Positions 2,837 through 24,780 of a DNA stretch of 34,857 nt are shown here, piece after piece. The position numbers and the translations under genes are program-made. Each line of letters begins with the position of its first letter. Position 1 is the stretch's first letter. The notes under the pieces are model-generated. The model did no database searches, was not told the DNA's origin, and was given only the letters and a program-made list of their open reading frames with translations. The DNA comes from Deltaproteobacteria bacterium. Its GTDB lineage: Bacteria > Myxococcota_A > UBA9042 > DTJE01. The stretch is taken from the NCBI GenBank assembly GCA_029555025.1, contig JAKPTZ010000021.1:1-34857 (forward strand), read 5' to 3'.

Positions 2837-4519
2837 TCAGACCAGCACGAAAGCCTTGATATAGACGACGGAAGGCGTCAGCAGTATGGTTACCGTCGTC
2901 GTTTCGCCATAGGTCACCTGATAGTCGATGCCCTCGGTCAGCAGGTTGCCTTCAATGTCGTAAACCGCCAGGCCGTCGTAAAGTTCCGGCAGCGGCAGCA
3001 GCAGTTCGTGGCTGGTGTCTTCGCCACCGGGGCCATCGACGCCCCACGAAGTATCGGGGAAGTCACGGCCGTCCCATGCGGCCACCGTCAGGCGTCCCCG
3101 GTCGTCCATGAAAGCAAGCGCATATACGTCGTTCGGCAGTTCGAGCGCGGTCGAGACGTCGCGGGCGAACCGCATCTCGCCAAGGTTGTCGGCAAGCGCC
3201 TTCAACGCCGCCCAGGCCGGCTTGGCCCTGCGCACGGTCCCGTCCCCGCCGGTCCAGCCGAAGAGCCCGAAGTATGATTCGTGCGGCCGAACGCCTTCCG
3301 TGGTCGGATATCCGTCCCAGAAGGTGTACCACAGGTATTTTTCGACCCCGTCACGGATGGCAAGCAGGATGCTGCGGGGCAGGAAAAGGCCAACCTGTTG
3401 CTCGGTCAGGTCGTATGAAGGCCAGCCCTGTTCCGAGATGATGACCGACTTGTCCGGACACCCGATTTCATCAAGGATCCCTTTAAGTATCGCGGTCTGC
3501 CACGACTGCCCTTGGAAGGCCAGGGTGTCGTCGATGATGACGTCGCGTTCCGGCGGGTCGTACTGCATGAACGTGTATGGATGGAACGCGACCACCTCGA
3601 AGTACTCGCAGATGTCGGGATGGGCCGCGGCGACCCGCTTCAGGAAGCCATAGCGGTCGGCAAGGTCGGTTTCGGCGTCGTACGAAGCAATGCCGCCGAA
3701 CGCCACGCGGGCTTCGGGGCACGCGCCCGTGATGGCCTGGTGCGCCGCCTTCAGCATCCGCCCGTAAGCCTCGGCATCCGGTTTTCCCGACCAGAAGCGC
3801 GGAATGTTTTCCTCGTTCCAGATCTCGAAGATGTTGATGTTCTGGCAATACTGGCCCGCGACATGACCGACGTATTCGCCATATTCCGCCATGTCGATTG
3901 AACTGGCGCCGTCGGTCTGGGCCCAGTCGTTTTCGTACCCGAACATCGGGATCACTTCGATTCCGCGCGAAATTGCCATGTCCATCTGGCCTTTCACGTG
4001 ATCCATGTTCCACTGGTCGTCGGCAGGTTCGATCCCGTCCCAGTGGAAGTCCTCGCGAATGGTCGCGCCGCCAAGCTCGACATACTTCTCGAATTCGAAA
4101 TTGCGTTCCGCGTTGTCCCCCGGTCCCTGGTGCATGTGTGTCGAGACCCCGATCGTCGCGCGCACCGTGTTTGGCCCGGTGGGCGCGATGTCTTCCCACA
4201 GCGGCGGCGTCACGGCATCGACGGCGTCGTCGTCGGCAGCGTCGCCCGGGACTTCGCCAGAATCCAGGGGGTCATCATCAAAGCCGTCGTCGCTCGAATC
4301 GTCAGGCAGGTCATCGGCTGTTTCGGCGAAGTCGTCCCCTTCAAGCCTGGCGTCAATGTCGCCCGCGCCGTCCGCACCGTCGTCGGAATGCGCGTCGGCA
4401 ACGATGTCCAACCCGTCGTCCCGCGTCGCATCGGATTGAACCGGGCCGCCGGAACACCCCGCGAGGCTGAAAACGGCGATTGCCGCGACAACGATTGTGA
4501 ATGTGGCATGGATGTTCAT
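2837..4519 (-). CDS. Lipoprotein with a clan GH-A glycoside hydrolase-like domain (GH39/GH5-like)
   Basis: A 560-residue protein with a type II signal peptide (lipobox LAGC, Cys about 22) and a strongly Asp-rich linker to about residue 105. A TIM-barrel-like domain then spans about 120-450. The acid/base Glu is visible at about residue 236 in FEIWNEENIPRFW and the likely nucleophile Glu at about 363 in VIISEQGWPSYD; this arrangement fits retaining clan GH-A enzymes. The last 100 residues look like a beta-sandwich. It should act on a polysaccharide or glycoside outside the cytoplasm, but the substrate cannot be read. It follows the prs-like gene by 53 bases on the same strand and may be co-transcribed. 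Its ribosome site (GGAA) is weak. Which GH family it belongs to is uncertain. Confidence 0.8.
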   Translation of the reverse strand: MNIHATFTIVVAAIAVFSLAGCSGGPVQSDATRDDGLDIVADAHSDDGADGAGDIDARLEGDDFAETADDLPDDSSDDGFDDDPLDSGEVPGDAADDDAVDAVTPPLWEDIAPTGPNTVRATIGVSTHMHQGPGDNAERNFEFEKYVELGGATIREDFHWDGIEPADDQWNMDHVKGQMDMAISRGIEVIPMFGYENDWAQTDGASSIDMAEYGEYVGHVAGQYCQNINIFEIWNEENIPRFWSGKPDAEAYGRMLKAAHQAITGACPEARVAFGGIASYDAETDLADRYGFLKRVAAAHPDICEYFEVVAFHPYTFMQYDPPERDVIIDDTLAFQGQSWQTAILKGILDEIGCPDKSVIISEQGWPSYDLTEQQVGLFLPRSILLAIRDGVEKYLWYTFWDGYPTTEGVRPHESYFGLFGWTGGDGTVRRAKPAWAALKALADNLGEMRFARDVSTALELPNDVYALAFMDDRGRLTVAAWDGRDFPDTSWGVDGPGGEDTSHELLLPLPELYDGLAVYDIEGNLLTEGIDYQVTYGETTTVTILLTPSVVYIKAFVLV

Positions 4520-8591: not shown

Positions 8592-9194
8592 ATGGGCGCT
8601 TGGATTCCGGTACTGGTTGTCCTGGGTGCTGTCGTCCTGTTCGTCATCATCGTCGCCGGCATGTACAACGGGCTGGTCACGCTTCGGAACCGTTACAAGA
8701 ACGCGTTTTCCCAGATCGACGTCCAGCTTAAGCGTCGGTATGACCTGATCCCGAACCTGGTCGAGGCGGTCAAGGGATACATGTCGCATGAACGGCAGAC
8801 GCTTGAAGCCGTTATCGCCGCGCGTAACGTGGCAATGGCGGCCGGAAAGACTGCCGCCGCAAACCCGGGCGATCCCGCGGCGATGAAGGCCCTGGGTGGC
8901 GCGGAAGGCGCGCTGACCGGCGCCCTGAGCCGGCTGATGGTCGTTGCCGAGGCCTATCCCGACCTGAAAGCGAACCAGAATATGATGTCGCTGCAGGAAG
9001 AACTGACTTCCACCGAAAACAAGATTGCTTTCGCCAGGCAGGCATATAACGACTCGGTGACGGTCTATAACACCGGCCGCGAGAAGTTCCCGGCCAACAT
9101 CATCGCCGGCATGTTCAATTTCGGTCCGGCCGAGCTGCTGGAATCGACCGAATCCGCCGAGGAACGCAAGGCCCCGAAGGTCAGCTTCAACTGA
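8592..9194 (+). CDS. lemA: LemA family membrane protein
   Basis: A 200-residue protein with one N-terminal membrane helix (about residues 4-24) followed by the classical LemA helical domain: NGLVTLRNRYKNAFSQIDVQ, KRRYDLIPNLVEAVKGYM, and ENKIAFARQAYNDSV near residue 140. AAGGAG lies 7 bases before the ATG. LemA proteins are cell-envelope proteins of poorly defined role, often encoded beside membrane proteases or TPM-domain proteins. Here an M48 protease gene follows after 28 bases, so the two are very likely co-transcribed and act together in membrane protein quality control. Confidence 0.95.
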   Translation: MGAWIPVLVVLGAVVLFVIIVAGMYNGLVTLRNRYKNAFSQIDVQLKRRYDLIPNLVEAVKGYMSHERQTLEAVIAARNVAMAAGKTAAANPGDPAAMKALGGAEGALTGALSRLMVVAEAYPDLKANQNMMSLQEELTSTENKIAFARQAYNDSVTVYNTGREKFPANIIAGMFNFGPAELLESTESAEERKAPKVSFN

Positions 9195-9222
9195 TCCCCG
9201 CTGTTGACAACAGGTGAAATCA

Positions 9223-11202
9223 ATGGACTTTTTTGCCCATCAGGACAAGGCCCGCAAGAAGAGTTTCCAGTTGGTTGTTCTGTTTTCGCTTGCCGTCGTG
9301 TTCATTGTCGTCGCGGTGTATCTGGCCATCATGGGCGTCATGTACTTCGCCTCCGGGAAGATGAGTGAGGTCGGGCCCGAGACCATCCCGTTCGAATGGT
9401 TCAATTTCGAGGTCTTTTACACGGTCGCGATAATTGTCGGCGCGGCGATCGGCGTCGCCACCCTGATGAAGATCCTGGCCTTGAGGCAGGGCGGATCTTA
9501 TGTTGCCGAAGCGCTTGGCGGAACGCTTGTCCAGCCGGACAGCACCGATTCTCTTGAACGACGCCTTCTTAACGTGGTCGAGGAAATCTCGATCGCCGCC
9601 GGCGTCCCGGTGCCGGCGGTCTATGTGATGAAGAAGGAACGCGGGATTAATGCGTTTGCCGCCGGCTGGAGTCCGTCCGACGCCGCGGTCGCCGTCACGG
9701 CCGGTTGCCTGGAGCAGTTGAACCGCGACGAGCTTCAGGGCGTCATCGCCCACGAGTTCAGCCACATCCTGAACGGCGACATGCGCCTGAACATCCGCCT
9801 GATCGGTTTCATCTCCGGGATCATGGTGCTTGCGACGATCGGATACTGGGCGCTTCACATGCGTCCTTCGTCGCGTGGCAAGAACAACGGATACGCCGCG
9901 ATCCTGCTGGCTGCGATTGCCCTGCTGATAATCGGTTACGGCGGCGCCTTCGTCGCCAGGCTGATCCAGAGCGCCGTGTCGCGCCAGCGCGAGTTCCTTG
10001 CGGATTCCAGCGCGGTCCAGTTCACCAGGAATCCGTCCGGCATCGCGAATGCGTTGAAAAAGATCGGCGGGTACGAAATCCACAGCACCATCCATTCGCC
10101 TGCGTCCAGGGAAGTGCGTCACATGTTCTTCGGCCCGTCGGACGTGGTCTCCATGCTCGGCTCGGTTCTGGCGACACATCCCCCCATCGATGAAAGGATT
10201 AAGCGTCTTGATCCGTCCTTTGATGGAGACTATTCGAAAAGGAGCGTGCTGCCGGACTTGCAGGCGCCGGAAGCCGCGGCCGGACAGGCCGGCGTGGCGG
10301 GAATGGTTGGAGCCGCCGCCTTCGGTTCGGCAGGTGCGTCCGCCCGCGCCGTTTCTTCCGGTTCGCCAACCTTGCCGACGTCGGCGGAATCGGTTGCCGG
10401 AATGGGAGTCCTGACACAGGAACATATCGACGCCGGCGCGGCACTTCTGGCCGCCATCCCGGATCGTCTGCGACAGGGCGTTTCAGAGCCGATGAGTGCT
10501 TGCGCGACCATCGCGGCGCTTCTTCTCGATTCGGATCCCGATGTCCGTTCGCGTCAGCTTGAGTCCGTCGCCCGTGAATTCTCGCCGGCCCTTGCCCGGG
10601 AAACGGGGCTTGTCGCGAAGGACGTGGCCTCGATTGATCCCGCTTTCCGCCTTCCTCTGGTGGATCTTGCGCTGCCGGCGCTTCGCCGCCTGTCGCGTCC
10701 GCAGTACGCGGCCTTTTCACGGACGCTTATCGAACTTGTGCGCGCGGACGAAAACGTCACCCTGTTCGAGTTCTGCCTTCAGAAGGTCGTCGAATTCAGG
10801 TTGTTCCAGGCGTTCGACGCCGCAAGCCGCGGTTACCGCGCCGTTTCCCCCAGGGAATTCATCGGTGATGCGGTCGTTCTTCTTTCGGCTGTTGCCAGGG
10901 CCGGTTCCAGTGTCGAAGACGACGCCCGCCGGTCGTTTGAAGCCGCCGTTTCAACGCTCTTCATGGGCCGTGTCCCCGCCGGGGTCGGGCCGTTGCAGAA
11001 GCCCGGCATCGACCAGCTTGACCAGGCATTCCAGAGGTTCTCGATGGCCCCGATGAAGATAAGACGGCAGGTATTTCTTGCCGTTTCCGACTGCGTGCTG
11101 CACGACGGCCATGTGACCGTTCAGGAATCCGAACTGATTCGCGCCGTTGCCTATTGCATGGGATTGCCGCTTCCGCCTTTCGTGGTCGGACAGGCCGCCT
11201 GA
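9223..11202 (+). CDS. M48 family (HtpX-like) membrane zinc protease with a long C-terminal extension
   Basis: A zinc metalloprotease with hydrophobic segments near residues 15-45, 65-85, 190-215 and 230-250. The HEFSH site has zinc ligands His177 and His181, with catalytic Glu178 and a third ligand Glu257 in REFLADSSAV, matching HtpX. The ATG at 9223 is preferred because AGGTGA precedes it by 5 bases; a GTG at 9214 is possible. HtpX proteins are about 290 aa, whereas this one is 659: after the protease there is an Ala/Gly-rich linker (about 340-400) and a helical region. Its last 60 residues (FLAVSDCVLHDGHVTVQESE, then CMGLPLPPF) resemble a TerB-like fold. The LemA neighbour supports a role in cleaving misfolded or damaged membrane proteins. 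Confidence 0.92.
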   Translation: MDFFAHQDKARKKSFQLVVLFSLAVVFIVVAVYLAIMGVMYFASGKMSEVGPETIPFEWFNFEVFYTVAIIVGAAIGVATLMKILALRQGGSYVAEALGGTLVQPDSTDSLERRLLNVVEEISIAAGVPVPAVYVMKKERGINAFAAGWSPSDAAVAVTAGCLEQLNRDELQGVIAHEFSHILNGDMRLNIRLIGFISGIMVLATIGYWALHMRPSSRGKNNGYAAILLAAIALLIIGYGGAFVARLIQSAVSRQREFLADSSAVQFTRNPSGIANALKKIGGYEIHSTIHSPASREVRHMFFGPSDVVSMLGSVLATHPPIDERIKRLDPSFDGDYSKRSVLPDLQAPEAAAGQAGVAGMVGAAAFGSAGASARAVSSGSPTLPTSAESVAGMGVLTQEHIDAGAALLAAIPDRLRQGVSEPMSACATIAALLLDSDPDVRSRQLESVAREFSPALARETGLVAKDVASIDPAFRLPLVDLALPALRRLSRPQYAAFSRTLIELVRADENVTLFEFCLQKVVEFRLFQAFDAASRGYRAVSPREFIGDAVVLLSAVARAGSSVEDDARRSFEAAVSTLFMGRVPAGVGPLQKPGIDQLDQAFQRFSMAPMKIRRQVFLAVSDCVLHDGHVTVQESELIRAVAYCMGLPLPPFVVGQAA

Positions 11203-11314: not shown

Positions 11315-14128
11315 TCAGAACGAACCCTTGATGCCCAGCACGGGAAGTATCGGAAGACCGGTCAGATAGGCCATCTTCGAGTAATCGTAGTTGTAGATCA
11401 CGCCTTCGGGGTTCTTGTGGAAATAGACGTTCTGGACTTCCAGGTACAGTCCAAGACGCCACGCCTTGAACACCCATTCCTTATCGACGCGGATGTCAAG
11501 CTGGTGGAACAGGGGCAGTTCCTGTGCGTTGATCCCCGGGGCGCGGACGCCGACATACGTGTCGTTGTCGGCATCGTACTGGTAACTTTCGTACTTCGTG
11601 TATGGATACCCGGACGTCAGCCTGAAGCGACCGCCGATCGTCCAGTTGCGCGGCAGCTTGTAGCTGATGGCGATGTTCAGGTTGTGGTTCTGCTGGAAGT
11701 CCGACGGCCGCCACCTCGCCAGGCCGAAGTCATAAAGTTCCGACTTGACGAACGTATATGCAATCCAGCCGGTCAGCGGGATGCGTTCGCTCGGGTTCAT
11801 ACGAAGCAGCACGTCGAAACCCCAGGCCCGCCCGATTCCGCCGTTGTCGTAACGGACGGTTGCATCGTCCGACACCTGTGCGCGGTTCCAGAAGTACTTG
11901 AAGAATCCGTTGAAATCCAGGGTCAGGCGGTCGATCGGGTTGTACTGGAAGCCGACAAGCGCGTGAGTCCCGTTTTCCGGATCGATGTCCGGGTTGCCGT
12001 ATCCCTCGATCAGCGTGAACGACTGCGGCGGCTGGCTGTAAAGACCGCCCGCGGCGCGGAAGCTGAGTTTGTCCTTGATCGCATCGACCGTCATGGAAAG
12101 TCGCGGGTCGATTGACCACGCCTTCCACGTCCCGACGTTCAAGTCGGCACGAATCGAAGGCACCAGCGTCAGCCGTTCAACCGGCTTGTATTCGACCGAA
12201 ACCCACGGCGAAATCGTCGCCATCACTCCGTCACCGGAAAGTTCCAGGACTTCCGACGACTCGTACGGCGTCATGTTTTCGCCGTCCAGTCCCATTTGCG
12301 GCCCCTTCAGCAGGAAACTGTACGGATCGACGTCGAAGTTCAGTCCGGCGCGCACGACCACTTTGCTGTGGGCCTGTACCGTAAGGGTTTCCTTGATCGT
12401 GACCGGATGGTCGCGCACCTTCATCTTGACCTGGCCGAACACGTCGAAGCCGGCCTGGGTAATCAGGCCCTGGACCTTCAGCTCGTTCGAAAGCCCGGCC
12501 CTTGGTTCCCAGTTCCATGTGGCCTGCAGCGCATGTCCCCACAGGGCGCCGGAAACGCTGCCGACAAAGGTCGGGTTGACGTCGTTTTCTTCGTTGATCA
12601 GTTCTCCGCGATCGTCGGAACCGTTGATGAAGAACGTCAGCTTGTGTCCGCCGGAGAACCGGTGCTGGAGCCTTACCTGGTAATCGTAGTACGCCGGGGC
12701 GGACGTAAGGATGCGGCCGTCGCCGAATGCATTGATGCTTTTCAGGATCGCGTCGTAATAGCTTCGCCTGAACGCGATCTGGATGTCGCCGCTGTCCTTC
12801 TTATAGGGGCCGCCGACGATGATTCCCGCGTGAAGCAGGTTCACATCGATCGAGCCGTGCCATGCCTTCAGGGGCTCGTCCTTCAGTTTCACGTTGACAA
12901 TGCCGCCCACCGCGCCGCCGTAGGATGCGTCGAATCCGGCCGGGACGAAGTCGATCGCCTCGATGAAGTCCGAATTGATCACCGAATAAAGGCCCGCGAA
13001 GTGGTACAGGAGCACGAAGGGCATCTGGTTGATGAAGACCTTGGTGTCGTTTGGCGGGCTGCCGTAAACGACAAGCTGCCCGACGCCGAAACTGGACCGG
13101 GCGATCCCGGGAAGGTTTTCAACCACTTTCAGGACGTCGCCGGCGGATCCCGGGAAGGACACCAGTTCCCCGGCCGAAAGCGATTGCTTGGCCGCGAACC
13201 TGGCCTCGCGCGGTGCCCTGATGATCGTCTGGTTGGAAACCGCCCCGTAAGCGCGCTTCAGGTAAATGGGCGACTCCGGCGGTTTTGCCCTGTCGTCCGC
13301 GCCCACCTTGAATTCCTGGCGGATTTCGTCGAACTCGCCCGCCGGGATGTAAAGGGTGTACCTGCCTGGCTGAAGGTTTGAAATCTCCATCCGGCCGTCG
13401 ATGGATGTGAATGTTGCGCCGGTTTCCTCGATGAATCCGGACACTTCGGAAATCGGATCCCTGGTGCCGCGTTCCAGCGTCAGGAACACCCTTACGACTT
13501 CGCGGATCTTCTGCCTGACTTCAAACTGGTATTCGTACTGCACCTGGACAAGAACCGCCTTGTCCTGATACGTGGCCGGCTTGAAACGGAATTTCTTCGC
13601 GGCCTCGATTGCCGGCGCGACAAGCTCGGGACGCGGCGGATCGGCCGCCGACACTTCGGTGACCGCCCCGTTTTCGTCGATCGTCAATGTAAGGACGACA
13701 ACGTACTGGCCGTCGGGGATGTCCAGCTCCGGCGGAAGCACGGCCTGCACGAACTCCAGCAGTTCTGGCGGGGTGACTTCCTGAAGGACGTCGCCTGCGT
13801 CCGCGGCCGGGCCCTGAGCGCCTTCCTCGACAGGGCCCTCATCAACCGGTCCTTCGTCGTCCGAACCGTCGTCCGCCGAACCTTCCTGAACCGGCCCCTC
13901 GCCGTCATCCTTGTCCGCCGGACCTTCCTGGACGGGACCTTCCTGGACGGGACCTTCCTCGATCGGGCCCTCGTCGGCCGGGCCTTCAACTGCCGGACCT
14001 TCGTCAACGGGATCCCCGCCCACCGCGCCTTCCACGGTCGGGGCGTCGGCAGTCGTCATCGATATGGCCGACATTGGGGCAAGCGCCAGAACAAGCGCGC
14101 CGAACGATGCAAGGGCAAGTCTTTTCAT
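11315..14128 (-). CDS. TonB-dependent outer-membrane receptor with an N-terminal TonB-like domain
   Basis: A 937-residue outer-membrane receptor. The ATG at 14128 has a GGGGG ribosome site and overlaps the stop of the preceding gene (ATGA). Layout: signal peptide 1-25; Glu-Gly-Pro repeat region about 42-108; a TonB C-terminal-like domain about 117-205 (VVVLTLTIDENGAVTEVSAA, then AIEAAKKFRFKPATYQDKAV); a carboxypeptidase-regulatory-like beta domain about 210-275; the plug about 315-420 (DVLKVVENLPGIARSSFGVG, AGFDASYGGAVGGIVNVKLK); and a barrel to the C-terminus, which ends in Phe as outer-membrane barrels do. It is the last gene of the exbB-exbD-tonB operon, so it is the likely importer energised by that complex. 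The substrate is unknown: there is no neighbouring siderophore, cobalamin or SusD gene. Confidence 0.93.
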   Translation of the reverse strand: MKRLALASFGALVLALAPMSAISMTTADAPTVEGAVGGDPVDEGPAVEGPADEGPIEEGPVQEGPVQEGPADKDDGEGPVQEGSADDGSDDEGPVDEGPVEEGAQGPAADAGDVLQEVTPPELLEFVQAVLPPELDIPDGQYVVVLTLTIDENGAVTEVSAADPPRPELVAPAIEAAKKFRFKPATYQDKAVLVQVQYEYQFEVRQKIREVVRVFLTLERGTRDPISEVSGFIEETGATFTSIDGRMEISNLQPGRYTLYIPAGEFDEIRQEFKVGADDRAKPPESPIYLKRAYGAVSNQTIIRAPREARFAAKQSLSAGELVSFPGSAGDVLKVVENLPGIARSSFGVGQLVVYGSPPNDTKVFINQMPFVLLYHFAGLYSVINSDFIEAIDFVPAGFDASYGGAVGGIVNVKLKDEPLKAWHGSIDVNLLHAGIIVGGPYKKDSGDIQIAFRRSYYDAILKSINAFGDGRILTSAPAYYDYQVRLQHRFSGGHKLTFFINGSDDRGELINEENDVNPTFVGSVSGALWGHALQATWNWEPRAGLSNELKVQGLITQAGFDVFGQVKMKVRDHPVTIKETLTVQAHSKVVVRAGLNFDVDPYSFLLKGPQMGLDGENMTPYESSEVLELSGDGVMATISPWVSVEYKPVERLTLVPSIRADLNVGTWKAWSIDPRLSMTVDAIKDKLSFRAAGGLYSQPPQSFTLIEGYGNPDIDPENGTHALVGFQYNPIDRLTLDFNGFFKYFWNRAQVSDDATVRYDNGGIGRAWGFDVLLRMNPSERIPLTGWIAYTFVKSELYDFGLARWRPSDFQQNHNLNIAISYKLPRNWTIGGRFRLTSGYPYTKYESYQYDADNDTYVGVRAPGINAQELPLFHQLDIRVDKEWVFKAWRLGLYLEVQNVYFHKNPEGVIYNYDYSKMAYLTGLPILPVLGIKGSF
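13805..14005 (-). repeat. Degenerate repeat tract encoding (V/A)xEGP units in the receptor
   Basis: The DNA encodes about a dozen acidic xxEGP units directly after the signal peptide of the receptor. At the DNA level an exact 15-bp unit (GACCTTCCTGGACGG on the plus strand) is repeated in tandem at 13921-13950. The repeat length suits copy-number change in frame. The peptide is probably an extended periplasmic spacer. Confidence 0.75.
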
Positions 14129-15342
14129 GGCTTGTCCCCCTTCTTCAGGCTGTCGAGGGTTCCCGGCGCGGGGCATTTGTCCCGGGTCTGGGCCTCTACA
14201 AAGAACCTCAAAAAGTTCAGGCCGAAGAGCTCGTCGCGCATCACCAGGGTGACCTGAGTGCGCCGCACCGGCTCTTCCTCCTTGAATTTCAATGTGTTGG
14301 TCAGATCCAGATCGACACCTTCCGCGGTGACCGACCCGATTCGAATCTTCTTGAACCTTCCGTTGTTGGCATACCAGGAAATGACCCAGTATTCGTCGGT
14401 CTCGACACCGTCATCCCCGGTAACGCGATCAATCGAATCCGGGGGAACCGTTGCCTGGAAGACAATTTCCTGTCCCGGACACGCCAGGATTTCCGGCTGT
14501 TCATGATTTCCAAGCGTCGTCGCCACAAGACCTTCCGGGTGCATCATGTCGAAAAGGTCATCGACGGGCTTGGCGCCCAGCCGGACGGAAAACTGCGGGT
14601 TCCTGTTCGGCTTCTGTCCTTCCTTCAATCCGCCGAAGGTTACCGTCTTGAATGTTTCCAGCACCCGCTGGCGCATCACCGGCTTGCCGTCGTCGTCAAA
14701 TACCGGCAGGTCCGAGTCGTCCAGCAGCATATCCCTGACCGTTACGCGAACCTTGAAGACTGGATTCAGGCCGTTCTGGAAGACGCATTTTCTGAAACCT
14801 TCGAATGCGTTCCCGTTGCAGGTTTCAAGATCCCCGTCCTTCAGGCAATCATCGTATTCGACAATAAGATCCTTGTTGCACTGGTCCGTGAAGGCGACCG
14901 CCTGCCGTATTCCGTCCATCAGGACTTCCACCTGATCCCGGACGAATTCCAGGCCAAGGGCAATCAGCGCGCCGTCGAATGTCGCGATCCGGCCCGAGTC
15001 TGAAACGTCGGTAACCGGGATTTCAGGCAGCGTGCACGCGAAATTTGCCGCGGCACCGGCCGAAATCAGGCAGACGGACCATTCGATGCCTTCAATTTCC
15101 GGCCCGACCAGATCGCCGGTTGGCGGCAATGGGAACGCCTCGACCAGCTCAAGTCTCACGGTCCCCTGGTATTCCGGCGTGAACTCGACCGCGGGCGGCT
15201 CGGCCATGACCCCGATTACCCGGTACTTCTCGATGAAGTTGGACGGGTTGTAATCCGGCATGCATCCCGCGGCCACCACGACCGCGAAAGCCCCGGTCAA
15301 AGCCACGGCCGTCCTTGTCCTTTCAGCCAGCCTGGTTATCAT
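14125..15342 (-). CDS. Lipoprotein of unknown function inside the TonB operon
   Basis: A 405-residue lipoprotein (lipobox VAAGC, Cys27). The ATG at 15342 has GGAGG 5 bases upstream and overlaps the stop of tonB (ATGA). Its own stop overlaps the start of the receptor gene the same way, so translation of all three is probably coupled. After the lipobox comes IEKYRVIGVMAEPPAVEFTP, a pattern I associate with uncharacterised lipoproteins of myxobacteria that carry Ig-like beta domains. The middle (about 130-190) has several Cys residues (DQCNKDLIVEYDDCLKDGDL, then CNGNAFEGFRKC). No enzyme motif is visible. By position it may be a periplasmic or surface accessory of the receptor, but this is inference only. 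Confidence 0.8.
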   Translation of the reverse strand: MITRLAERTRTAVALTGAFAVVVAAGCMPDYNPSNFIEKYRVIGVMAEPPAVEFTPEYQGTVRLELVEAFPLPPTGDLVGPEIEGIEWSVCLISAGAAANFACTLPEIPVTDVSDSGRIATFDGALIALGLEFVRDQVEVLMDGIRQAVAFTDQCNKDLIVEYDDCLKDGDLETCNGNAFEGFRKCVFQNGLNPVFKVRVTVRDMLLDDSDLPVFDDDGKPVMRQRVLETFKTVTFGGLKEGQKPNRNPQFSVRLGAKPVDDLFDMMHPEGLVATTLGNHEQPEILACPGQEIVFQATVPPDSIDRVTGDDGVETDEYWVISWYANNGRFKKIRIGSVTAEGVDLDLTNTLKFKEEEPVRRTQVTLVMRDELFGLNFLRFFVEAQTRDKCPAPGTLDSLKKGDKP

Positions 15343-16217
15343 GTCCCCTCCGGAATGAAGACGACCGTCCACTTCAGGTTGAATGCAATCGGGACGCCGT
15401 TCCTGGTCGCCGGCTCGAACTTCAACTGGTTGACCGCGCGAATCGCCGCGTCGTTGAATTCCTGCTCGGCACCTTTTCGCACTTTCACCGACTTGACCGC
15501 GCCATCCGAGCCGATAGTCAGCATCAGTTCCACGCGGACCACCCGTCGCAGATCCCTGAATGCCTGGGGGTACTGCCCCTTGACGTCGTTAAGCGCCTTG
15601 GGCTGGGTGATGACGACCTTCTCCTTTGCCGGCCCGCCCTGGCCGCCAGTCCCCCCTTCACCGCCGGTGCCGTCGTTCCCGGGAACCGAAGGCGCATCGA
15701 CGCCCTTTACGAAACCTTTGGCACTGACGGTCGGGTCGCCGAACAGGTTGCTGTCATCCCCGGTCTGAACCGCGACGCTGCCCTTCAGGGCCACATTCTT
15801 CAGCACGAAAGGCTTCGGCTTGGCCGGTTCCGCCGGCGGGGCGGGCGGCGGCGGGACTTCCCTGGGCGGTTCGACCGGTTTTGGCGGCTTCGGCTTCGGC
15901 TCCTGCTTCGGCGGCGGCTTCGGTGTTTCCTGTTTCGGTTTCGGGGGCTCGGCCTTCTTTGGGATTGGCTTGGGGGGCTCGGGGGTCTTCTCGATCGGTT
16001 TCGGTTCCGGCGAGGGCTCCTCAAGCTTCCTGATCAGATCCTGCCTGACCTGGATCGGGACCGGGCGCACGGCAACCTTCTTCGGCCGCGGCGGCGGGGC
16101 GGGCCGTTCGTCAGGGGCGGCCAGATATGCCCCCACGTGCATCAGCACGGACAGGCCCACGCTGACACCCAGGATCAGCGACCTTGGCATTTCGCGTGAT
16201 TTTGAACCGCCGCCCAC
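15339..16217 (-). CDS. tonB: Energy transducer TonB
   Basis: A 292-residue TonB: an N-terminal membrane helix (about 13-33), a long Pro/Lys/Glu-rich spacer (about 35-150), a Gly-rich stretch (GTGGEGGTGGQGG) and a C-terminal TonB domain (about 205-292; VRVELMLTIGSDGAVKSVKV, then AIRAVNQLKFEPATRNGVPI). I chose the GTG at 16217 because GGGGGA lies 8 bases upstream and this leaves a short 37-base gap after exbD. A later ATG at 16190 lacks a ribosome site, and longer open starts would run through exbD. TonB spans the periplasm and transmits energy from ExbB-ExbD to outer-membrane receptors, here presumably the one encoded two genes downstream. Confidence 0.93.
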   Translation of the reverse strand: MGGGSKSREMPRSLILGVSVGLSVLMHVGAYLAAPDERPAPPPRPKKVAVRPVPIQVRQDLIRKLEEPSPEPKPIEKTPEPPKPIPKKAEPPKPKQETPKPPPKQEPKPKPPKPVEPPREVPPPPAPPAEPAKPKPFVLKNVALKGSVAVQTGDDSNLFGDPTVSAKGFVKGVDAPSVPGNDGTGGEGGTGGQGGPAKEKVVITQPKALNDVKGQYPQAFRDLRRVVRVELMLTIGSDGAVKSVKVRKGAEQEFNDAAIRAVNQLKFEPATRNGVPIAFNLKWTVVFIPEGT

Positions 16218-16254: not shown

Positions 16255-16785
16255 TCACCCGCCCGTCGCGCCCGTTCCGGCGGCACCCGCGGTGCCATCC
16301 GCGCCAGCCGCACCAGGCGCGGGCGCGCCCCCGGCACCCGTGGCCGACGGATCGATCGTCTGTTCCTCGACGTTGACGGCAAGGTTGCCGATGCCTTTCA
16401 GTTTCAGGTAATCGATGACCCGCGTAATACGTCCCCAGCTCAAGTCCTTGTCAGCCGACACGACCGCCTGGGGATCACCGCCGGACTCGCGTCGCCTGTC
16501 GATTTCCGTCCCGATCTTTTCCAGGGTCGTTTCAGTGCCGTCCAGATACAGCTTTTCCTGCCTGTCCAGTATGACGTTCAGGGGAACCTGCGGATTGTCC
16601 GGGACAAGCCCGCTCGCCGCTGTCGGCAGCGTAAGCTGAATCTCGCGCATCTTCTTTTCCTGCTGGATGAACAGGTTCGCCGTCACCATGAAGATGATCA
16701 GCAGGACCAGGAAGATATCGACCAGGGGCGTGACGTTTATCGCGGAGATCATCTCCTCGTCGTCATTTTGTGTCGCACCAGCCAT
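16255..16785 (-). CDS. exbD: Biopolymer transporter ExbD/TolR family
   Basis: A 176-residue inner-membrane protein of the ExbB-ExbD proton-driven motor. The N-terminus has the family motif INVTPLVDIFLVLLIIFMVT, containing the essential membrane Asp, followed by a periplasmic domain (PLNVILDRQEKLYLDG, VVSADKDLSWGRITRVIDYL). The ATG at 16785 has GGAGG 8 bases upstream, and the gene overlaps the 3' end of exbB by 23 bases. The last 30 residues are an unusual Gly/Ala/Thr/Pro tail that is not part of the normal ExbD fold. TolR is an alternative name, but the adjacent tonB and receptor favour ExbD. Confidence 0.93.
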   Translation of the reverse strand: MAGATQNDDEEMISAINVTPLVDIFLVLLIIFMVTANLFIQQEKKMREIQLTLPTAASGLVPDNPQVPLNVILDRQEKLYLDGTETTLEKIGTEIDRRRESGGDPQAVVSADKDLSWGRITRVIDYLKLKGIGNLAVNVEEQTIDPSATGAGGAPAPGAAGADGTAGAAGTGATGG

Positions 16786-17398
16786 CCTCTCCGCCTCCAA
16801 ACTTCCTGTGGATCAGGCCGGTAACGATTTCCTTGGTCTGTTCGACCGACGCGGAAACCTTGCGCCTGAATATGTTGTAGAACATGACTGCCGGGATCGC
16901 GACGATCAGGCCCATGGCCGTCGCGACAAGCGCTTCGGAAATGGCCGTCATCAGCAGCTCGTTCTTTTCGGCCGTCTCGCCGACGTCGGCAAGGACGAAG
17001 AACGCGGCCATGATTCCCAGAACGGTTCCAAGAAGCCCGATGAACGGGGCGTTGTTGCCAAGCGTTGCCAGGAAGGTAAGCCCCTTCTCGTACCGCGCCT
17101 TCTGCTTGCGAACCTCGGTTTCAAGGGCGCTTTCCGCGTCTTCCCGGTCGATGAAGTTGCGGCCGCCGTCAAGGATCGTCTTCGCGACGATGACTTCCAT
17201 GCAGTCTGCCGGCATTCCATCGGTGCTGCCGCACACAAGGCGCCTTGCCACGTCGGGCTGCACCCGTCGCCTGAAGTAAAACAGCCATCGCTCGAAAATG
17301 ACGGCCAGCGAGAGAACCGAAAGCAGGATCAGCAGGTAAAGAACCCACTCGACCCCGAGTGCGATGAAAAACTCCTGAAGCATGTCCGAAAATGTCAC
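16763..17398 (-). CDS. exbB: MotA/TolQ/ExbB proton channel family protein
   Basis: A 211-residue inner-membrane protein with a first helix at about 17-38 and the conserved two-helix channel region at about 110-190 (LATLGNNAPFIGLLGTVLGI, then ISEALVATAMGLIVAIPAVM). A GTG start at 17398 is chosen: GGGGGA lies 8 bases upstream, exactly as for tonB, whereas the ATG five codons later has no ribosome site. It is the first gene of the operon, preceded by a good promoter. With ExbD it uses the proton gradient to drive TonB. Confidence 0.93.
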   Translation of the reverse strand: MTFSDMLQEFFIALGVEWVLYLLILLSVLSLAVIFERWLFYFRRRVQPDVARRLVCGSTDGMPADCMEVIVAKTILDGGRNFIDREDAESALETEVRKQKARYEKGLTFLATLGNNAPFIGLLGTVLGIMAAFFVLADVGETAEKNELLMTAISEALVATAMGLIVAIPAVMFYNIFRRKVSASVEQTKEIVTGLIHRKFGGGEDGWCDTK

Positions 17399-17441
17399 TT
17401 TTTGAATCCCCCGATAAAAGAGGCAGGTCAAGCTGGCAGTA

Positions 17442-23025: not shown

Positions 23026-24780
23026 TTATTTCGGCGTTTCAGCCAGATCCAGCGGGGCGTACGGGGCCGCGGCGGTTCTTTCAAGCACGCCGGCGTAATC
23101 TTCGTCCACCGTGAAGAATTCGGTGTTCAGCTTTTCGAATGCCCGGTTGATCGTGTCGAAGTCGTTGTCCCTGACGTCAAGGCGTTCTCCGGCGCCATCG
23201 GTCGGGTACAGGACTCCCCACAGGGAAGGCGCGTCGAAGTACTTCCAGCTCCACGGGGCCCAGTGGACGCCGCGCCTGTTCATCATTTCAAGGACGCCTT
23301 CCATGGCGTCAAGTTGCCACCTGTCCGCCGGATCGTCGGTCGAGTTGAAGGCGTTTGGCCCATATACGTTGAATTCGCCGTAAAACAGTGGACAGTCGAA
23401 GCGATCCCAGACCTTCTCAAGTTGCGTGATCTCCTCTTCCATCATCCGGATATGGTTTGCCGCATCCTTTCCGCCCGGATAGTCGTGAAACGACATCATT
23501 GCGTTATCCCAGCCGTACTCAGCCGGCCCGGCCAGTGTTGACATGGCCAGGAAGCCGTCTTCAAGCATGATGATGTGTTCGGTGTTTTCCTGGCGGATTG
23601 CGGAAATGATTGCCTGGTGGGCGGCCAGGTAGCGTTCATGGTCGGGTGCCCCGGCCGGTTCGTTAAGAAGGTCGAGCACCGCCACGTGGGGCTCGCCCTT
23701 GAAATACCGCGCCATCGCCTGCCACAACCTGGCAGTCTTGTCGATGCAGTCCTGTCGGGTGAAGAACTGGCCGCCGTTTTCAAGGCCCTGGTGCCACCAC
23801 GGGCTCTGGCCGCCCGGCGCTCCGTGCAGATCAAGCATGATGTAAAGACGGTACTTCCGGGCCCACTCGATGACCTGATCCAGCCGGCGCCATCCTTCAA
23901 GGACGAAAGCGTTTTCACCGTCGATGTCGGTTTCGAGTGTCTGGTACCAGACGGGAACGCGGACCAGGTTCATACCCATCTCCGCGACAAGCTCGAAGTC
24001 CCGCTCGGTGATGTAGTTGTCCTGGAAGGTCGTTCTGAGTTCGTTCATGCCGTCGTATCCGAAACGCTTCGTCAGCCAGTTCCACAGGGCGCGCTCCTCG
24101 AAAATCCATGGCTCCGAATCGAACCAGGCCCAGAATGCCCCGGATCCGGCTTCAAGACCCGGCTTCATGTTTTCTTCCATGTACTGTCGCCATTCCTGGA
24201 CGCACAGCCATGCGGCCTTCAACTGGAAACTGCAGTCGATGATGTTGATGGCCTGCGCCTCACCGAAAAGTTCCGCCACGCCGAATTCGACGGCCTTGTC
24301 CGGCATCATCCCCAGCAGTTCTTCCTGGCCCAGGACACCGATTCCGGCAAGCCAGCTTTCCATCATCAGCCAGCTTCCAAAGTTCATGCCGCGAAGCATC
24401 ACCTTGTTCCCTTCGTCATCGACGATGTCGCGTCCTTCAACATGAAGCAGGGGAAGCGTGGCCTTCTCGATCGGTTCCGGTCTTGTCGGGAACGGCTGGC
24501 TGTTCGGCCTGCAGTCGGCCTGGACCGGCCCCATGAAGACTTCATTGCCGTTGTCCGCCGCATCCGCCCCGTCAGCCGCGTCGTTCTGGGCCGAGTCGCC
24601 GTGCCCCTGGTCGGCGTGCACATCCATCATGTCGGTCTCGTCGCCCGTGTCGTCCCCCGTCATCGCGTCCGCTTCGGTGTCGGCAAGGGATGCATCGGTT
24701 TCCTGGACCGAGCCGCCGCACCCGGAAATGAAAAGGAACGTCGCGGTTGCAAGCATCGCCGTCAGTAAGCTCTTAATCAT
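23026..24780 (-). CDS. Lipoprotein with a glycoside hydrolase family 5-like domain
   Basis: A 584-residue lipoprotein (lipobox ISGC) with an Asp-rich linker to about residue 75 and a GH5-type TIM barrel from about 105. N-terminal strand RGMNFGSWL, then MNLVRVPVWYQTLE and MLDLHGAPGGQSPWW are typical of GH5. The acid/base Glu374 is in LDLLNEPAG and the nucleophile Glu469 in PLFYGEFNVY. AAGGGG precedes the ATG by 8 bases. An insertion of about 100 residues (about 150-260) follows the first strand. GH5 covers cellulases, mannanases and exo-1,3-glucanases; the substrate here cannot be told. It likely acts at the cell surface. Confidence 0.88.
   Translation of the reverse strand: MIKSLLTAMLATATFLFISGCGGSVQETDASLADTEADAMTGDDTGDETDMMDVHADQGHGDSAQNDAADGADAADNGNEVFMGPVQADCRPNSQPFPTRPEPIEKATLPLLHVEGRDIVDDEGNKVMLRGMNFGSWLMMESWLAGIGVLGQEELLGMMPDKAVEFGVAELFGEAQAINIIDCSFQLKAAWLCVQEWRQYMEENMKPGLEAGSGAFWAWFDSEPWIFEERALWNWLTKRFGYDGMNELRTTFQDNYITERDFELVAEMGMNLVRVPVWYQTLETDIDGENAFVLEGWRRLDQVIEWARKYRLYIMLDLHGAPGGQSPWWHQGLENGGQFFTRQDCIDKTARLWQAMARYFKGEPHVAVLDLLNEPAGAPDHERYLAAHQAIISAIRQENTEHIIMLEDGFLAMSTLAGPAEYGWDNAMMSFHDYPGGKDAANHIRMMEEEITQLEKVWDRFDCPLFYGEFNVYGPNAFNSTDDPADRWQLDAMEGVLEMMNRRGVHWAPWSWKYFDAPSLWGVLYPTDGAGERLDVRDNDFDTINRAFEKLNTEFFTVDEDYAGVLERTAAAPYAPLDLAETPK

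Follow-up and report, generated by a model that had tools for sequence, protein, structure and literature searches.

The window, a DNA stretch of 34,857 nucleotides, encodes on its minus strand a TonB-dependent outer-membrane receptor (11315-14128) in which a predicted TonB C-terminal-type domain precedes the plug and a TonB-box-like strand is retained between the two. The layout TonB_C, sandwich, plug and barrel is phylum-wide and ordinary within Myxococcota. The receptor gene is the last of an operon that also encodes ExbB-, ExbD- and TonB-type proteins and a lipoprotein.

Domain anatomy of the receptor

The receptor was recognized from its reading frame, Pfam, AlphaFold and Foldseek as a protein of 937 aa. 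It is encoded by a single unbroken frame of 937 codons with the ATG at 14128 and the stop at 11315 (features are on the minus strand unless stated otherwise). A basic start and a hydrophobic core, judged by inspection, mark a signal peptide at residues ~1-25 (14054-14128). An acidic tail follows at residues 31-109 (13802-14038), delimited by composition, tandem repeat and the alignment of relatives. Its 79 residues include 25 Asp/Glu and nine [ED]GP triplets, with a single Lys and no Arg, in agreement with the acidic EGP repeat tract described in the first-pass annotation, and the tract is partly encoded by a 15-base tandem repeat. The tail is poorly kept among relatives (7-11% identity, about half gaps). 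The same annotation had taken the tract for an interdomain spacer. This part was dropped, since the tract is the free, lineage-specific N-terminal tail of the mature protein and does not lie between TonB_C and the plug.

Three independent sequence models and structure prediction identify residues 117-206 (13511-13780) as a predicted TonB C-terminal-type fold. Both Pfam and NCBIfam scored above their curated cut-offs: PF03544 (TonB_C) matched residues 143-203 with 30.3 bits (cut-off 24.6) and TIGR01352 matched residues 143-204 with 28.9 bits (cut-off 27.1). For comparison, the operon TonB, encoded two genes upstream, scored 50.0 bits to PF03544. A profile of the TonB_C region built from 20 sequences matched the solved TonB domains 2k9k (E 1.1e-10), 6fip (5e-9) and 1u07 of E. 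coli (4e-6); the window receptor alone gave no significant match to the PDB with phmmer. AlphaFold2, run with 22 sequences, predicted strands at residues 140-150 and 155-161, a helix at 167-177 and a strand at 194-204 with a pLDDT of ~90, the confident fold spanning residues 120-205. The proposal that such a domain stands ahead of the plug was thus borne out by profile searches and by the strand-strand-helix-strand order of the model. Across 21 relatives from independent genomes, the TonB_C stretch had 0-1% gaps, and it was as conserved as the barrel both within the family (47% versus 49%) and farther out (31% versus 31%). The conserved positions P121, P132, G154, A176 and F182 look structural and do not indicate a binding face.

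Residues 211-290 (13259-13498) form a predicted beta-sandwich of the carboxypeptidase-regulatory-like kind. The match to PF13620 was weak (15.5 bits, cut-off 32.3) and the strands were modelled at pLDDT 80-90. A Pfam search for an STN domain (PF07660) in the receptor gave no match at E values up to 1.

The putative TonB box, the strand NQTIIRAP at residues 299-306 (13211-13234), was assigned by position and family pattern and is retained immediately ahead of the plug. Of 62 relatives, 61 had a plug motif that could be placed. A box-like strand lies ~20-30 residues before it, reading in most of them ETVVRGE, EIVVTAP, DVLVEGE, EVVVQGE or similar, much as classical boxes do, and less typically in some groups (YRATAVAPPE, PGIIGSYHKE); an automatic pattern caught 29 of the 61 and the remainder were assigned by eye. 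The earlier suggestion that TonB_C occupies the usual place of the box therefore had to be revised: the box is kept downstream of the domain, and relatives have equivalents.

The plug domain spans residues ~315-420 (12869-13186). Its match to PF07715 (E 2e-4, 22.3 bits) was slightly below the curated cut-off of 23.9, and the aligned region is 45-70% identical to relatives. The remainder, residues 421-937 (11318-12868), is the large beta-barrel of TonB-dependent transporters, as judged by AlphaFold and Foldseek. With the predicted structure, Foldseek matched plug and barrel to FepA, Cir and BtuB (E ~1e-24) and also to PirA and FecA. The nearest named record belongs to a Myxococcota MAG, with 80% identity over residues 625-937.

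Distribution and origin of the fusion

A single-protein scan of genome contigs yielded only two loci. With P0001 as query, relatives were found in 52 of the 53 genomes of the neighbourhood. We then surveyed Myxococcota genomes with a profile comprising TonB_C and the sandwich. Matches at 1e-10 or better occurred in 232 of 285 genomes and at 1e-20 or better, by our own count, in ~199 of 285. Nearly all of the matches listed cover the full profile and lie in open frames of ~800-1300 aa. Matches to PF03544 alone were mostly in TonB-sized frames (~200-430 aa) or in receptor-sized ones (~800 aa and more). Three receptors (L098, L089 and L126) have two tandem TonB_C copies ahead of the plug.

The origin of the domain was approached with a tree of 63 receptor-borne and 31 TonB-borne TonB_C domains, which is weakly resolved as it has 94 columns. 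Receptor and TonB labels changed four times on the tree, compared with 26 times in shuffles, and a single receptor clade was not rejected (AU p 0.25). The TonB_C of the window receptor grouped with the receptor domains of its own family (support 100/98), apart from the TonB of its own operon. This grouping points to a long-kept part with a role of its own, and we rejected a recent capture of the neighbouring tonB because the tree places the domain with receptors.

An artificial origin, in which a frameshift or an assembly error joined a tonB gene to a receptor gene, is extremely improbable and is refuted by the relatives. We found no evidence for such a join; the frame is unbroken, the same join recurs in relatives from independent genomes, and the domain groups with other receptors and not with the neighbouring tonB. 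Equally, we rejected the idea that TonB_C serves as a second TonB driving transport. The domain lies behind a signal peptide and acidic tail, where the membrane anchor and the proline-rich periplasmic arm of a TonB are absent, and it therefore cannot drive transport as TonB does.

The operon and its lipoprotein

The genes are arranged in the order exbB-exbD-tonB-lipoprotein-receptor, all on one strand: an exbB/tolQ-type gene (16763-17431), an exbD/tolR-type gene (16255-16800), tonB (15339-16217, with its TonB_C at 15357-15575), the lipoprotein gene (14125-15342) and the receptor gene. At the last two junctions, the stop of one gene and the start of the next share an ATGA: tonB and lipoprotein at 15342-15339, lipoprotein and receptor at 14128-14125. 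Seven family orthologues have the identical order. The first-pass picture of a receptor with an N-terminal TonB_C-type domain beside a ton operon, a kind seen in myxobacteria, held for the window, and the receptor layout extends across Myxococcota. Co-occurrence with exbB-exbD-tonB, which the first-pass annotation had proposed to survey, was partial: exb/ton genes were found nearby, within the fetched stretch, in 29 of 62 sampled receptor loci, a figure that is not a phylum rate since the sample favours strong matches and has limited flanks, and about half of the loci had none nearby. At three loci (L128, L129 and L130), an exbB-exbD-tonB-lipoprotein cluster is not followed by a receptor gene.

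Elsewhere in the window, 2837-4519 and 23026-24780 match glycoside hydrolase family 5 (cellulase), the first weakly. These matches are a possible hint at glycan use, and no link to the receptor is shown. A LemA gene (8592-9194, plus strand) is directly followed by a gene for an M48 peptidase with a long C-terminal extension (9214-11202, plus strand).

The partner lipoprotein has 405 aa and a lipobox with Cys27. Its model (pLDDT 83, pTM 0.81) predicts two Ig-like sandwiches with a helical insert. The lipoprotein family has no Pfam or NCBIfam name, and neither collection gave a match apart from isolated chance-level ones in single relatives. The fold search returned generic Ig-like matches with no close solved relative, and no SusD was among the 50 best. 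The family shares the signature C-x3-F-x-P ... R-V-L-A-[IV]-x-A-[DE]-P-P-E (window 14125-15342; L036-L127).

A first pass with a profile from the window family only recovered 37 lipoprotein ORFs by sequence, of which 30 had not been used for training. With a profile anchored at the lipobox Cys, for which some of the counted sequences served as training, a copy was found on the same strand in 49 of 61 sampled loci; 48 of these adjoin the receptor and one is ~2.4 kb away. The lipoprotein gene lies upstream of the receptor in most of the window's class and downstream elsewhere. In a strict lipobox scan, 31 of 61 receptors had a lipobox gene next to them, a count that includes a few unrelated lipoproteins and misses clear cases. 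All 25 receptor-bearing genomes contained the lipoprotein, while none of the 30 genomes whose matches to the receptor profile were absent or weak did. In the 25 receptor genomes, 37 of 47 copies are no more than 1 kb from a TonB_C receptor, where ~0.1 would be expected by chance; some receptor paralogues have no lipoprotein. At two loci (G036:C515 and G040:C311) the copy beside the receptor is divergent, on the opposite strand, unlike the usual same-strand pair. By analogy with known transporter-lipoprotein pairs, the lipoprotein is a candidate substrate partner of the receptor, a role for and against which we see the balance as roughly level.

Possible roles of the domain and relation to known systems

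Our preferred reading, held at about even odds, is that TonB_C in the receptor would act as a gate or docking part in the periplasm, much like the signalling domain of FpvA. The N-terminal extension of TonB_C and small beta-sandwich, followed by an ordinary TonB box, plug and barrel, would stand ahead of the box like that domain or like the carboxypeptidase-type extensions of the Oar and SusC type. In the resting state, the exposed third strand of TonB_C would pair with a TonB-box strand, the receptor's own box first. Ligand binding would then free the box for the operon's TonB, powered by ExbB/ExbD. The lipoprotein would serve for substrate binding or as a lid on the barrel, like SusD and BtuG with their partner transporters. 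The parts of this scheme differ in strength: a gating role could about equally well be right or wrong, and pairing with the receptor's own box is possible but doubtful.

Several observations argue for the gate or docking module: three sequence models and the structure prediction agree on the TonB_C fold, the domain order is conserved over most of the phylum with the box retained before the plug, the domain lacks the anchor and arm of a TonB and is a long-kept part by the tree, and dedicated exb/ton genes adjoin the receptor at 29 of the 62 sampled loci. There are also precedents (PMC11658791): the TonB CTD takes up TonB boxes as an added strand next to its third one, and in FpvA the strand of the TonB box is paired with the signalling domain. 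Others weaken it. In the single-receptor AlphaFold2 model, residues 294-306, including the box, were disordered (pLDDT < 50) and TonB_C was not docked onto the box; the conserved positions give no binding face; and in about half of the sampled loci exb/ton genes are missing near the receptor. The tandem TonB_C copies would be unneeded by a clamp on a single box.

The same operon data bear on a rather unlikely alternative, in which the TonB_C of the receptor pairs with that of TonB and so recruits TonB. Such pairing would fit the exbB-exbD-tonB genes in the window operon and in all seven family orthologues, the nearby exb/ton genes at other sampled loci, and FoxA, where a segment before the box binds TonB constitutively (PMC11658791). 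A local tonB is, however, missing for many receptors of the family, and we saw no direct sign of a TonB_C-TonB_C contact. TonB_C also has the position of an STN domain, as a small periplasmic fold before the box, and might like STN contact an inner-membrane or periplasmic regulator and report substrate binding. We consider this improbable, as no sigma or anti-sigma gene is among the neighbours annotated in the window and the receptor has no STN match. Finally, the structural look of the conserved positions and the freely variable EGP tail ahead of them would suit an inert relic that only spaces or stabilises the receptor. This is quite improbable, because TonB_C matches the barrel in conservation and shows no gaps across the phylum; such long retention speaks for function.

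Returning to the gate or docking module, its widest form is a Myxococcota-wide class of transporters with a built-in TonB mimic that would occupy TonB boxes (its own or a neighbour's), compete with TonB, gate the energy supply and work with a dedicated Ig-like lipoprotein in a system distinct from SusCD. We put this forward tentatively and think it the less probable outcome. If true, it would add regulation of Ton by a mimic as well as this separate kind of transporter-lipoprotein system. Such receptors bear on two questions: by what means TonB finds the correct receptor and lets go of it again, and how empty transporters avoid wasting energy. A receptor with the gripping domain of TonB ahead of its own box makes competition between domain and TonB for the box testable. 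By its linkage to these receptors, the lipoprotein family missing from Pfam and NCBIfam points towards a SusCD-like pair for uptake in Myxococcota, where nutrient uptake is poorly known.

In the openly readable literature searched, we found no paper describing a receptor fused to a TonB domain, and the architecture seems functionally undescribed there. A survey of 34,893 transporters gave five N-terminal architectures, none with TonB_C (PMC6434023). The fusion is already present in a curated family, since the NCBIfam model of MxcH, the TonB-dependent myxochelin receptor (NF038079), begins with TonB_C; its positions 1-89 match both the receptor domain and stand-alone TonB. All 22 aligned receptors match NF038079. 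The window receptor scores 48.7 bits, only over positions 1-89, against an equivalog cut-off of 925 bits and is thus not an MxcH equivalog; no siderophore gene was found in the window.

In Oar of Myxococcus xanthus, which has its own Ton operon (PMC6434023), a carboxypeptidase-type sandwich precedes box and plug (CarboxypepD_reg, plug, barrel), at the place where such a sandwich is predicted in the window receptor; no TonB_C is described in Oar, whereas the receptor here has one. FecA, FpvA and FoxA also carry a small periplasmic domain before the box; theirs is STN, whereas that of the window receptor is TonB_C, with no sigma or anti-sigma neighbours annotated. SusC/SusD and BtuB/BtuG of Bacteroidota similarly combine a transporter with a lipoprotein from an adjacent gene. 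In contrast to these, the lipoprotein described here is predicted as two Ig-like sandwiches lacking a close solved relative.
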